DNA from: Planotetraspora kaengkrachanensis | Lineage (GTDB): Bacteria; Actinomycetota; Actinomycetes; Streptosporangiales; Streptosporangiaceae | Length of the DNA: 64,000 bases | Assembly: GCF_016862895.1 (NCBI RefSeq) | Contig: NZ_BONV01000018.1 | Coordinates: 62,001 to 126,000 of the forward strand | Direction of reading: 5' to 3' | Shown: one piece after another, positions 2,392 to 4,943 of the stretch | How positions within the stretch are numbered: position 1 is the first letter of the stretch | Layout: each line of letters starts with the position of its first letter | The notes under the pieces: model-generated | What the model was told of the DNA's origin: nothing | The model's database searches: none | What the model saw: only the letters and a program-made list of their open reading frames with translations | Program-made: the position numbers and the translations under genes

Positions 2392-3129
2392 TCAGACGCT
2401 CACGGCGGTCGGAACGCCGGCACGCCGGCCGAGGACACGGTCGGTCAGACCACCGAACAACAGGCCCAGCGTCCCCCACACCGTCAACTGGATGGCCAGG
2501 GAGGCCAGCCGGAAGCGCCACAACACGGTCGCCGAGAAGTCACCCGGAACCTCGTTCACCTCCGGCATCACCGCGTAGATGATCCCGATGATGACGGCGA
2601 AGACTCCCACGGCCGCCAGGGCGGCGTTCCAGCCACCGAGCCGCGGCGCCAGCCGACGGCCCGCGTACAGCGCGACCGCGGTCGTGAGCAGGCTCAGCAG
2701 GATCAGCGTGACGTACAGCGTGGTGCGGGACCCGATCGTGTCCTCGCTTCCCACCGCCGGCGGGTTGGGCGGGTACTTCAGGAACGGGACGACATAGATC
2801 ACGGCGAAGCCGACCAGGGCCACCAGCGCCGCGGTCGTCCGAGGCCGGAAATCCCCGATGCGGCCGTGTGCGAAGGCGAACGCGATGGAGAACAGCCCGC
2901 CGAAGGCCACGCCGTACACGACGAGTGCGGTGATCAGGCCGAAGGTCTCCTGGACGGTCCGGCTGAACACCTCGTGCTCGTGCACCTCGCCGGTCGCGGC
3001 CGCCTTGGCCTCCTCGAACGAGATGGCCAGAGCGACCTGGGGTTCGCCGAGGAACCACGCGACGACGTAGGCGAGCGCGGCCGCGGCGAGCCCGACGAGC
3101 ATGCCGCGGATCAGCAGAGTTCGCATCAT
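2392..3129 (-). CDS. cbtA: Cobalt transporter subunit CbtA
   Basis: A 245-residue polytopic membrane protein matching the CbtA family, the membrane partner in the CbtAB cobalt uptake system that feeds cobalamin synthesis. It shows a first membrane segment (MLVGLAAAALAYVVAWFLG), the family-typical HEHEVFSRTVQ stretch after it, and several more helices to the C-terminus. It lies 18 bases downstream of cbtB on the same strand and shares the upstream cobalamin riboswitch, which strongly supports the assignment. Two adjacent ATG codons (3129, 3126) could start it. Substrate specificity comes from family knowledge, not from this sequence. Confidence 0.88.
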   Translation of the reverse strand: MMRTLLIRGMLVGLAAAALAYVVAWFLGEPQVALAISFEEAKAAATGEVHEHEVFSRTVQETFGLITALVVYGVAFGGLFSIAFAFAHGRIGDFRPRTTAALVALVGFAVIYVVPFLKYPPNPPAVGSEDTIGSRTTLYVTLILLSLLTTAVALYAGRRLAPRLGGWNAALAAVGVFAVIIGIIYAVMPEVNEVPGDFSATVLWRFRLASLAIQLTVWGTLGLLFGGLTDRVLGRRAGVPTAVSV

Positions 3130-3147
3130 GAGAGCGAGCCCGGCCTG

Positions 3148-3360
3148 TCAGTGGCAGGGGAAGCCGAGAAGGTGACGTCCGTCGTGGACGAATTCGTGCA
3201 CGGTGCTGCCACTGATGATCGACGTGGCCCCCTGCTCGGCGCCGACGAAGTACAGCAGAGCCAGCCCGAGAACCGCGGCGAACACGGCCCAGGGAACGAT
3301 CTCGCGAACCGGGATGCGGAGCGGAACGGTCTTGCCAGAAGGAACGGCGACGTTGGCCAC
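3148..3360 (-). CDS. cbtB: Cobalt transporter subunit CbtB
   Basis: A 70-residue protein with one membrane helix (PWAVFAAVLGLALLYFVGA) and the C-terminal His-rich metal-binding signature of CbtB: H-x3-HDGRHLLGFPCH at residues about 54-70. Together with CbtA it is expected to take up cobalt. It starts at a GTG with the ribosome-binding site GAGAGGAG upstream, and its 5' leader is a cobalamin riboswitch ending about 35 bases before the start codon. High cobalamin should therefore shut the operon off. Confidence 0.9.
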   Translation of the reverse strand: MANVAVPSGKTVPLRIPVREIVPWAVFAAVLGLALLYFVGAEQGATSIISGSTVHEFVHDGRHLLGFPCH

Positions 3361-3394
3361 GGTCTTCTCCTCTCGGGGTCACGCGCCCCGACGA

Positions 3395-3555
3395 CGGAGG
3401 ACAACGGGTCAGTCTTCTGACTCCCGAGCGCCGCTCCTCCTTGACCGTTTCCGCCTGTCACAACGGTGGCCACACGGGGGAGGGACTCTCTCGGTCACAG
3501 TGGCGGGACCGTCCTGGGATCGCACCAGGTTCCTGCGCACCGTTGCCTCAATGTT
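3395..3555 (-). ncRNA. Cobalamin (B12) riboswitch upstream of cbtBA
   Basis: Read on the minus strand, the leader carries the landmarks of the AdoCbl/B12 riboswitch in order: GGAACCTGGTGCGATCCC, then the B12-box-like GTCCCGCCACTGTGA, and at the 3' side GAGTCAGAAGACTGACC. This element normally represses cobalt-uptake and cobalamin-synthesis genes when the vitamin is plentiful. It sits directly before cbtB and ends close to its ribosome-binding site, so translational control is plausible. Boundaries are approximate. Confidence 0.9.
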
Positions 3556-3677
3556 GATTTGTCCCCCAGAGACTCCCTCCCTCCTGCTTGTGACGTCAAG
3601 GCCAGTTTGAACATTGTTTTCCGGATCACACGGTCATCCATCCCCGGAGCCACCCTTCCGGCACGGTGACGGCGATG

Positions 3678-3683
3678 TAGTCT
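3678..3683 (+). promoter_or_regulatory. Probable -10 box for the trp leader / trpS transcript
   Basis: TAGTCT matches the actinomycete -10 pattern TAxxxT. It lies 8 bases before the leader-peptide ATG at 3691, so the transcript would begin at or within a base or two of that ATG, giving a leaderless leader peptide. The -35 region is weak. Confidence 0.4.
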
Positions 3684-3690
3684 GATCGTC

Positions 3691-3732
3691 ATGCATCGTC
3701 TGTCGTGTCCGAGTTGGTGGCGCTCCGCTTAG
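3691..3732 (+). CDS. trp leader peptide MHRLSCPSWWRSA
   Basis: A 13-codon ORF ending in TAG with two adjacent Trp codons (TGG TGG at 3715-3720) near its end, placed before a terminator hairpin and a tryptophanyl-tRNA synthetase gene. This is the arrangement of a ribosome-mediated attenuator: a ribosome short of charged tRNA-Trp stalls on the tandem Trp codons. The peptide itself is unlikely to have another role. There is no ribosome-binding site, which fits leaderless translation from a start site next to the ATG. Confidence 0.85.
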   Translation: MHRLSCPSWWRSA

Positions 3733-3793
3733 GAGCGGCCATCTCTCACGCACGACCCCGGGCCGTTCGGATGGACGGCCCTTCGTGTTTTCT
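3721..3793 (+). promoter_or_regulatory. Ribosome-mediated transcription attenuator of trpS
   Basis: Three mutually exclusive pairings can be drawn. Pause hairpin 1:2 is CGCTCC (3721-3726) with GGAGCG (3732-3737). Antiterminator 2:3 is GAGCGGCC (3733-3740) with GGCCGTTC (3761-3768), including one G-U pair. Terminator 3:4 is GGGCCGTTC (3760-3768) with GGACGGCCC (3773-3781), loop GGAT, followed by the T-rich run TTCGTGTTTTC. A ribosome stalled at the Trp codons covers segment 1 and frees 2 to pair with 3, allowing read-through into trpS. Confidence 0.85.
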
Positions 3794-3854
3794 GCCTGGA
3801 CGAGCGGTCGCCGTCAGAACCGGCCGTGACCCGTCTCGCCTTCAGGAGAACCAC

Positions 3855-4943
3855 ATGACCATCGACCTCGATGTCGACCATTCGTCCCCATCTGACGGAC
3901 TCTCCACAGTCCAGCGCCGCAGTGCCGTTCTGGAGGAGCTCGTCCACCGGGATCCCGGGCGGTTTCGCGTGCTCACCGGCGACCGCCCCACGGGCCGGCT
4001 GCACCTGGGGCACTACTTCGGCACCCTCCACAACCGGGTCCGCCTGCAGAACCTGGGCGTGGAGATGCTGGTGATCATCGCGGACTACCAGGTTCTGACC
4101 GATCGTGACGTCGCCGACCGCCTCACCGAACACGTCGAGGACCTGGTGCTCGATTACCTGGCGGTCGGCGTGGACCCGCAGCGGGCCACGATCTTCACCC
4201 ACAGCGCGATTCCGGCGCTCAACCAGTTGCTCCTGCCGTTCCTCAGCCTGATCACGGTCGCCGAACTCGGCCGCAACCCCACCGTCAAGGAGGAGATCGC
4301 CCAGTCGCAGCAGTCGTCCGTCAGCGGACTCATGTTCACCTATCCGGCACACCAGGCCGCCGACATCCTGTTCTGCAAGGCCAACCTGGTGCCGGTGGGG
4401 CAGGACCAGTTGCCGCACCTCGAGGTCACGCGCACCATCGCCCGCCGTTTCAACAGCCGCTACGGCGGCGGCCTCGAGATCTTCCCTGAGCCCGACGCCC
4501 TGTTGTCGGCGGCTCCGCTGCTGCTGGGAACCGACGGCACCAAGATGAGCAAGAGCCGCGGCAACGCCATCGTCCTCGCATCGAGCGCCGACGAGACCGC
4601 CAGGTCGATACGCAGCGCGAAGACCGACTCCCACCGGCACATCAGCTACGAGCCCGCCACGCGGCCCGAGGTGTCCAGCCTGGTCCTTCTGGCCGCGCTG
4701 TGCCTCGGCCGCGATCCCCGCCAGGTCGCCGAGGACCTCGGCGGCAGGGGAGCGGCGGCGTTGAAGGAGACGGTGACCGAGGCGGTCAACGCCTACCTGG
4801 CTCCCATCCGGGAGCGCCGCGCCCTGTACGCCCAGGACCGCGGCCACATCCGGAAGGTGCTGCGTGACGGCAACGAACGGGCCGCGGCCATCGCGAACAC
4901 GACCCTCACCGAAGTGAGGAGCACCATGAACGCCCTCTATTGA
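3855..4943 (+). CDS. trpS: Tryptophanyl-tRNA synthetase, auxiliary attenuator-controlled type
   Basis: A 362-residue class I tRNA synthetase that charges tRNA-Trp. The HIGH-like motif is HLGH at residues 50-53, within TGDRPTGRLHLGHYFG, and the KMSKS loop is exact at residues 230-234. The ATG at 3855 has an AGGAG site 6 bases upstream. An alternative upstream GTG overlaps the leader region and is not credible. The Trp leader peptide and attenuator directly before it mean expression rises when charged tRNA-Trp is scarce. In Streptomyces an auxiliary, indolmycin-resistant TrpRS is controlled in this way, so this is probably the second TrpRS rather than the housekeeping one (inference). Confidence 0.93.
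   Translation: MTIDLDVDHSSPSDGLSTVQRRSAVLEELVHRDPGRFRVLTGDRPTGRLHLGHYFGTLHNRVRLQNLGVEMLVIIADYQVLTDRDVADRLTEHVEDLVLDYLAVGVDPQRATIFTHSAIPALNQLLLPFLSLITVAELGRNPTVKEEIAQSQQSSVSGLMFTYPAHQAADILFCKANLVPVGQDQLPHLEVTRTIARRFNSRYGGGLEIFPEPDALLSAAPLLLGTDGTKMSKSRGNAIVLASSADETARSIRSAKTDSHRHISYEPATRPEVSSLVLLAALCLGRDPRQVAEDLGGRGAAALKETVTEAVNAYLAPIRERRALYAQDRGHIRKVLRDGNERAAAIANTTLTEVRSTMNALY

Follow-up and report, generated by a model that had tools for sequence, protein, structure and literature searches.

A complete trp-type ribosome-mediated attenuator occupies positions 3691-3791 of the stretch of DNA that we analyzed, the 64,000-nucleotide window G000:C18:62001-126000 of an 8.77-Mb Planotetraspora genome (Streptosporangiaceae), and lies upstream of a second trpS gene at 3855-4943. 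Its anatomy and its conservation among relatives make it very probable that a classical, ribosome-mediated transcription attenuator of the trp type controls this auxiliary tryptophanyl-tRNA synthetase (TrpRS). The attenuator and trpS are both on the + strand. Direct reading of the sequence, backed by relatives and shuffles, gives a probably leaderless leader peptide, MHRLSCPSWWRSA, of 13 codons at 3691-3732, running from ATG at 3691 to the stop TAG at 3730-3732. Control codons of the regulated amino acid lie near that stop, as tandem Trp codons TGG (3715-3720; codons 9 and 10 of 13), and relatives share them. No Shine-Dalgarno sequence was seen before the leader when the sequence was read directly; a -10-like box, TAGTCT (3678-3683), stands 7 nt before the ATG.

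Three helices can be drawn downstream of the leader start, each excluding the others. Segment 1 (3716-3726) forms the 5' arm of helix 1:2, with 11 pairs and one bulge, and segment 2 (3732-3743) forms its 3' arm. Within segment 2, positions 3733-3740 double as the 5' arm of an eight-pair antiterminator 2:3 with 3761-3768. Segment 3 (3760-3768) supplies both the 3' arm of 2:3 and the 5' arm of the nine-pair terminator 3:4, whose 3' arm is segment 4 (3773-3781), followed by an imperfect T-rich tail, TTCGTGTTTT (3782-3791). The site thus has an intrinsic terminator with a U-run, broken in the window and longer in many rows of the alignment described below. The first-pass annotation, made from the window alone, had read the site as a tryptophan attenuator with a 13-codon leader, tandem Trp codons, alternative 1:2, 2:3 and 3:4 pairings, an eight-pair antiterminator and a nine-pair terminator; direct reading recovers each of these parts, and the anatomy together with the comparison across relatives supports the reading as a whole. 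By direct reading, trpS has its own Shine-Dalgarno-like AGGAGA (3844-3849), and its 362-aa product is TrpRS-II-like (GDRPTG, ADYQ), matching TIGR00233 at 239.3 bits (cut-off 176.75).

These elements are rare by chance. The fold of 3691-3800 has z = -3.5, and none of 200 shuffles was equally stable; a mechanical scan independently recovered the terminator (mean 0.3 in shuffles). A tandem-Trp mini-ORF of 8-25 codons arose in 143 of 20,000 dinucleotide shuffles of 3560-3860, and one with TAnnnT 5-8 nt ahead in just 1 of 20,000. Both strands of the 64 kb together hold four tandem-Trp mini-ORFs, and the box is present only at the 3691 leader. A promoter scan detected no sigma-70 promoter at the attenuator, and a -35 box is not enriched among relatives (6 of 55 rows against 5.2 expected). 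No Rfam family matched the site at gathering scores, and relaxing the threshold added just two matches of chance level, so that a T-box or known riboswitch there is unsupported.

With TrpS protein similarity alone as the query, we collected 64 loci, 59 actinobacterial (L007-L065) and five from other phyla (L066-L070). In 57 of the 59 actinobacterial relatives, a Trp leader is present whose start codon follows TAnnnT at a distance of 6-7 nt; neither L032 nor L054 showed a leader within the 700 nt or less covered. Among rows picked without regard to the box, 55 of 55 (53 distinct loci, window included) have TAnnnT 6 or 7 nt upstream of an in-frame start codon, either ATG or GTG, and the box shifts with that codon across leaders of 12, 13, 14, and 17 codons. 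The spacing holds in 57 of 59 relatives, whatever the length of the leader, which makes it very probable that the ribosome reads the peptide from a leaderless mRNA. The window itself has the -10 box at a distance within the 5-7 nt range and lacks a Shine-Dalgarno sequence; in S. lividans, the box averages 6.3 nt from the start site, as the available part of PMC8079986 gives it. Leaderless translation of the peptide had also been proposed in the first-pass annotation, and the comparison of relatives bears it out; the TAGTCT noted there is present, at a spacing of 7 bases rather than the eight claimed.

A separate draw of genomes gave a similar result. Of 394 genomes drawn in a survey of the class, 46 carry the enzyme (E <= 1e-70), and 45 of these, window included, have a full upstream stretch. 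Tandem-Trp leaders preceded by NAnnnT at 6-7 nt occur in 38 of the 45 upstream regions (34 with TAnnnT); the reverse strand has 0, and single-base shuffles average 0.0. L115 and L116 have leaders with a single or split Trp codon, and at a contig end in G161 a leader is visible in part, by eye. The survey total is 41 of 46, with no leader found in G140, G234, G241, G364, or G092; in G092, segments 2-4 are recognizable and the leader is gone.

Outside the Actinobacteria, four of the five loci lack a leader by the box test, and L066 has one leader match with a poor box, 536 nt away and without tandem Trp. In L067 (Nitrospiraceae bacterium), a mini-ORF with three Trp codons, MTFWWHWTATTNS, at about 2599-2640, precedes a 40%-identical trpS by about 400 nt and has no TAnnnT box at 6-7 nt. 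We took the leader-like matches of L066 and L067 as probably due to chance. Several natural variants were seen among the actinobacterial relatives. L008 (P. phitsanulokensis, 2835-2876) has its first Trp codon changed to CGG (SRWRSA), so that a single control codon is left; L062 (Saccharopolyspora spinosa NRRL 18395, 2926-2989) keeps the leader and segment 2, lacks segments 3-4, has its first possible trpS start, a GTG, 21 nt past the leader stop, and looks like a natural terminator deletion. Streptomyces sp. A1277, which has the attenuated copy L013, carries a second gene of this TrpRS type, L032; a Trp leader was not found in the 700 nt upstream of its match. Variants of these kinds (one Trp codon, lost terminator, lost leader) could be used to test the mechanism.

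To follow the helices across relatives, we aligned the window with 55 of the 59 relatives (alignment A1), the rows being chosen to have a terminator. A1 leaves out L032 and L054 (no leader), L056 (a leader of another form, MTPRRSWWWLPPQP), L062 (no terminator), and the duplicates L004 and L006; its rows start 8 codons before the Trp pair, so that leaders of 14 or 17 codons are clipped. TGGTGG is present in 55 of the 56 rows, the exception being L008 (CGGTGG). Over the 55 distinct rows, standard pairs are kept at 97.5% in 1:2, 98.4% in 2:3, and 99.6% in 3:4, compared with 38.0-63.8%, 28.4-62.3%, and 24.8-64.8%, respectively, when the arms are slid by 1-3 columns. Compensatory support is good for 1:2 and 2:3 and weak for 3:4. 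Helix 1:2 has four pairs changed on both sides, and none of 500 shuffles reached any of five measures. Helix 2:3 has two such pairs, as do its slides by -3 and +3, and shuffles reached two of its measures (9 and 161 of 500). For 3:4, shuffles reached every measure (12 to 500 of 500): its one pair changed on both sides was matched by 18 of 500 shuffles and exceeded by the slide of -3, which shows two, and its covariation score of 0.073 compares with 0.082 for the slide of +3. Since this helix hardly varies, the case for 3:4 rests on conservation and the terminator scan. Segment 2 is near-invariant across rows, as would be explained by its pairing with both segments 1 and 3, and L038 and L048 show concerted changes in segments 1, 2, and 3, with WWRS becoming WWPS.

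A covariance model of the attenuator (R1), searched over the 394 genomes at E <= 0.001, matched 41 of them, 12 above 66 bits. Eleven of these 12 precede a TrpS of this type. The remaining one (L081, also L149, in G165) is a well-kept attenuator ahead of a TrpRS gene to which tblastn gives only two separate matches, both in one frame; this gene may be a pseudogene with an internal deletion. The window scored 104.9 bits, second in the class search, a score flattered by the window's own presence among the model sequences. Weaker matches comprise another trpS of the present type (L088), three TrpRS genes that stand closer to the housekeeping type (L086, L092, and L095), anthranilate synthase-like genes, an apparent tRNA, and apparent chance matches. 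Those before anthranilate synthase-like genes have leaders such as MHTPSTRSWWPAS and were mostly judged by eye: a longer piece of L089 matched Chorismate_bind and GATase, and N-terminal pieces of trpE-like genes gave no family match.

Constrained folding gave both alternative structures. If segment 1 is masked and synthesis has only just completed segment 3, 2:3 forms (-15.6); with a ribosome at the stop, 3:4 forms (-18.0). On the full RNA with segment 1 hidden, the 3:4 fold (-22.4) is stabler than the 2:3 fold (-15.6), and therefore the switch must work by order of synthesis; as bare helices, 3:4 and 2:3 have values of -18.0 and -13.7. In the mechanism that we propose, transcription would begin at or next to the leader ATG, and therefore a ribosome would load on the leaderless 5' end. 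When Trp-tRNA is ample, it would reach the TAG at 3730-3732, where its leading edge, at about 3742, would cover segment 2 and let terminator 3:4 form. When Trp-tRNA is scarce, e.g., under inhibition of the housekeeping TrpRS, stalling of the ribosome on codons 9-10 would leave segment 2 (3733-3740) free, 2:3 would form once segment 3 is made, and the terminator would be pre-empted, so that trpS is transcribed. If the leader is untranslated, 1:2 should form and transcription end. The switch would then raise a spare TrpRS when charged tryptophan tRNA is in short supply, and we infer for the enzyme a role as a drug-tolerant or emergency backup.

The window fold also extends 1:2 outward. Its outer 5' arm (3702-3713), spanning roughly leader codons 4-8, has its partner in the spacer past segment 2, with 3702-3708 pairing to 3750-3756 and 3711-3713 to 3745-3747. 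In a swap test on 19 dissimilar leaders, own partners gave -12.2 kcal/mol against -10.7 kcal/mol for swapped ones, and 109 of 20,000 permutations were as low. Support for this pairing is weak because swapped partners beat own partners in several rows, e.g., L025, L042, L047, and L065. Pairing of leader codons with the spacer, rather than a function of the peptide, may explain why the peptide is conserved.

Other readings of the region were weighed against transcription attenuation. The hairpin could be real and control mainly translational or by reinitiation, a ribosome on the leader opening or reloading on the trpS start; leader peptides that boost reinitiation have been proposed for bacteria, Actinobacteria included, in the accessible part of PMC4833913. 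Here, however, 122 nt and a strong hairpin separate the leader stop from the trpS ATG, trpS has its own Shine-Dalgarno-like site, and segment 4 is kept in all 56 rows of A1 (rows that were chosen to have a terminator), and we give this explanation a very small chance. Equally improbable to our minds is a decayed attenuator whose parts are kept by descent while the promoter or terminator is dead in this species. The imperfect U-tract, the lack of a -35 box, and the broken versions in relatives (one Trp codon in L008, no terminator in L062, no leader in G092) would suit decay, but the window retains every pair and both Trp codons, and its R1 score ranks second in the class even if membership in the model flatters it.

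Least credible of all is that trpS starts at an in-frame GTG at 3705, giving a 412-aa protein of which part of the supposed leader would be coding sequence. The frame is indeed open from 3705 to 4943, yet the length of the corresponding open frame varies from 371 to 421 aa among five Planotetraspora genomes, the region holds conserved RNA helices, and a Shine-Dalgarno-like site precedes 3855. We retain ribosome-mediated transcription attenuation as the best reading of the site.

To place the enzyme itself, we compared it with solved structures and with other TrpRS sequences. The nearest solved chains are 1yi8 and 2a4m (TrpRS II), which we take to be from Deinococcus radiodurans; this best solved relative shares with the window enzyme both GDRPTG and the Gln discussed next. 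TrpRS II has a role in nitration together with NO synthase, according to the available text of PMC9437257. All 21 [DE]RPTG rows have Gln where the housekeeping enzyme and L095 have His, a position that we matched by eye to His43 of B. stearothermophilus TrpRS. In the latter enzyme, H43N gives indolmycin resistance, as stated in the portion of PMC4899734 at hand. The window enzyme may plausibly be indolmycin resistant.

In a tree that leaves out L060 and L063 (broken or short translations), one branch (100/100) sets the 21 [DE]RPTG rows apart, and another (98/93) does so for three TrpRS1-like rows, where a long-branch warning applies; residue signatures agree with this split. The window enzyme (GDRPTG, Gln) does not fall in the clade of Streptomyces TrpRS1, for which L095 (leader MTSRMCIQCWWAA, SGVKPTG, His), chosen by its leader, stands in. 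We count L095 with the Streptomyces TrpRS1 line, since its relatives in genus g36, which by our guess is Streptomyces, have leaders like MTTRTCTQLWRAA (L164), close to S. lividans MMTRTCTQLWRAA; TrpRS1-type leaders in g36 also resemble MTTRTCTQLWWAA. A DNA pattern made from the S. lividans trpL2 peptide matched none of 150 g36 genomes. A protein search then recovered TrpRS1-type genes, with strong matches to residues 1-70 of L095 in 39 of 61 g36 genomes. Among 30 L095-type loci of g36, the start was not found in 7; the remaining 23 include 21 with a Trp leader. The TrpRS-II-like line thus appears to lie apart from the TrpRS1-type enzymes, which seem to have leaderless attenuators of their own. 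We take the TrpRS1-type enzymes to be the indolmycin-resistant line of Streptomyces. SGR_3809 of S. griseus is an indolmycin-resistant TrpRS, as the accessible part of PMC6804068 reports.

The first-pass annotation had called the window trpS auxiliary and suggested looking for another in the genome; a second trpS, 32% identical, is indeed present at G000:C29, with no such leader in 700 nt. More widely, another TrpRS accompanies this enzyme in 41 of the 46 genomes of the class survey (39 by family search, plus G092 and G364, which have two TrpRS and no leader), and hence a housekeeping TrpRS is generally present beside it. In five genomes the family search found a single TrpRS; a leader is present in two (G161, partial at the contig end, and G267) and lacking in three (G140, G234, and G241). 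Within family f26, perhaps Nocardioidaceae by our guess, the enzyme occurs in 11 of 149 genomes and is the sole TrpRS in 10, none of which has a Trp leader within 700 nt; in the f26 genome G549 (8% contamination), there are two TrpRS, and a leader is present. The leader-lacking L117, L122, and L154 group together in the tree (89/83, a branch not starred), and for that reason the absence in f26 may reflect one loss. A rule that a sole TrpRS lacks the attenuator is only partly supported by these counts. Exceptions aside, the copy-number pattern fits an auxiliary role of the attenuated copies.

Control of this kind has precedents. Auxiliary, indolmycin-resistant TrpRS1 of Streptomyces is reportedly the subject of work by Kitabatake in 2002 and by Vecchione and Sello in 2009 and 2010, the last of which, by its title, is said to concern an attenuation mechanism for an auxiliary antibiotic-resistant TrpRS in Streptomyces. 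A 2015 paper reportedly treats Trp attenuators in Actinobacteria. Attenuators of the trp operon or trpE in Actinobacteria, like trpL of E. coli, share the tandem Trp codons and the 1:2, 2:3, 3:4 logic; they control biosynthesis, whereas that of the window would control a synthetase, and the paired sequences differ. The S. lividans leader trpL2 presumably precedes TrpRS1. As described in the accessible part of PMC8079986, trpL2 (MMTRTCTQLWRAA) is a short leaderless Trp leader with hairpins downstream, for which a uridine-rich stretch was not found, and leaderless Trp leaders were reported there from RNA-seq, so that the leaderless feature was already known. On that account, the S. lividans trpL2-trpS pair and the window share an auxiliary trpS, a leaderless Trp leader, and downstream hairpins. 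Seliverstov 2005 (PMC1262725), in the text available, predicted trpS attenuators in some Streptomyces, including a classical one before the second trpS (trpS2) of S. avermitilis, as in the window; that same portion mentions neither leaderless starts nor the TrpRS clade.

The control had been likened in the first-pass annotation to that of the indolmycin-resistant TrpRS of Streptomyces. The likeness holds as an analogy and fails as orthology, because TrpRS1-type enzymes form a different clade and the Streptomyces precedent is not the same gene line. Our literature search, which lay outside most subscription journals, found no attenuator paper tied to the TrpRS-II-like clade. The type of switch is thus known, and what the sequences add is the line of enzyme, how deeply the system is conserved, and its pattern of loss. 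They indicate that leaderless Trp attenuation acts on two distinct actinobacterial lineages of TrpRS where each is a second copy. Strains with the inducible enzyme may tolerate tryptophan-analogue antibiotics.

A broader proposal can be put forward tentatively, with the balance somewhat against it. The TrpRS-II-like enzyme and the leaderless Trp attenuator may have travelled jointly through the Actinomycetes as an emergency module, with the attenuator dropped where the enzyme is the sole TrpRS. Pairing of leader codons with the spacer beyond segment 2 might further make loading at the leaderless start part of the switch, such that, with no timely ribosome, a long 1:2 hairpin forms and the gene is off.

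Other elements were seen nearby in the window. Divergent to the attenuator, a cobalamin riboswitch (RF00174, 49 bits) lies on the - strand at 3390-3557, and thus two RNA switches stand back to back in about 400 bases. Downstream of the riboswitch, on the same strand, are a 70-aa CbtB-like ORF, recognized by eye (3148-3360), and a CbtA match (PF09490, 1.2e-75) within 2392-3360. On the + strand, 1191-1610 and 1803-2288 encode adjacent small proteins that match no Pfam family, resemble each other in C-terminal pattern, and look like paralogues.
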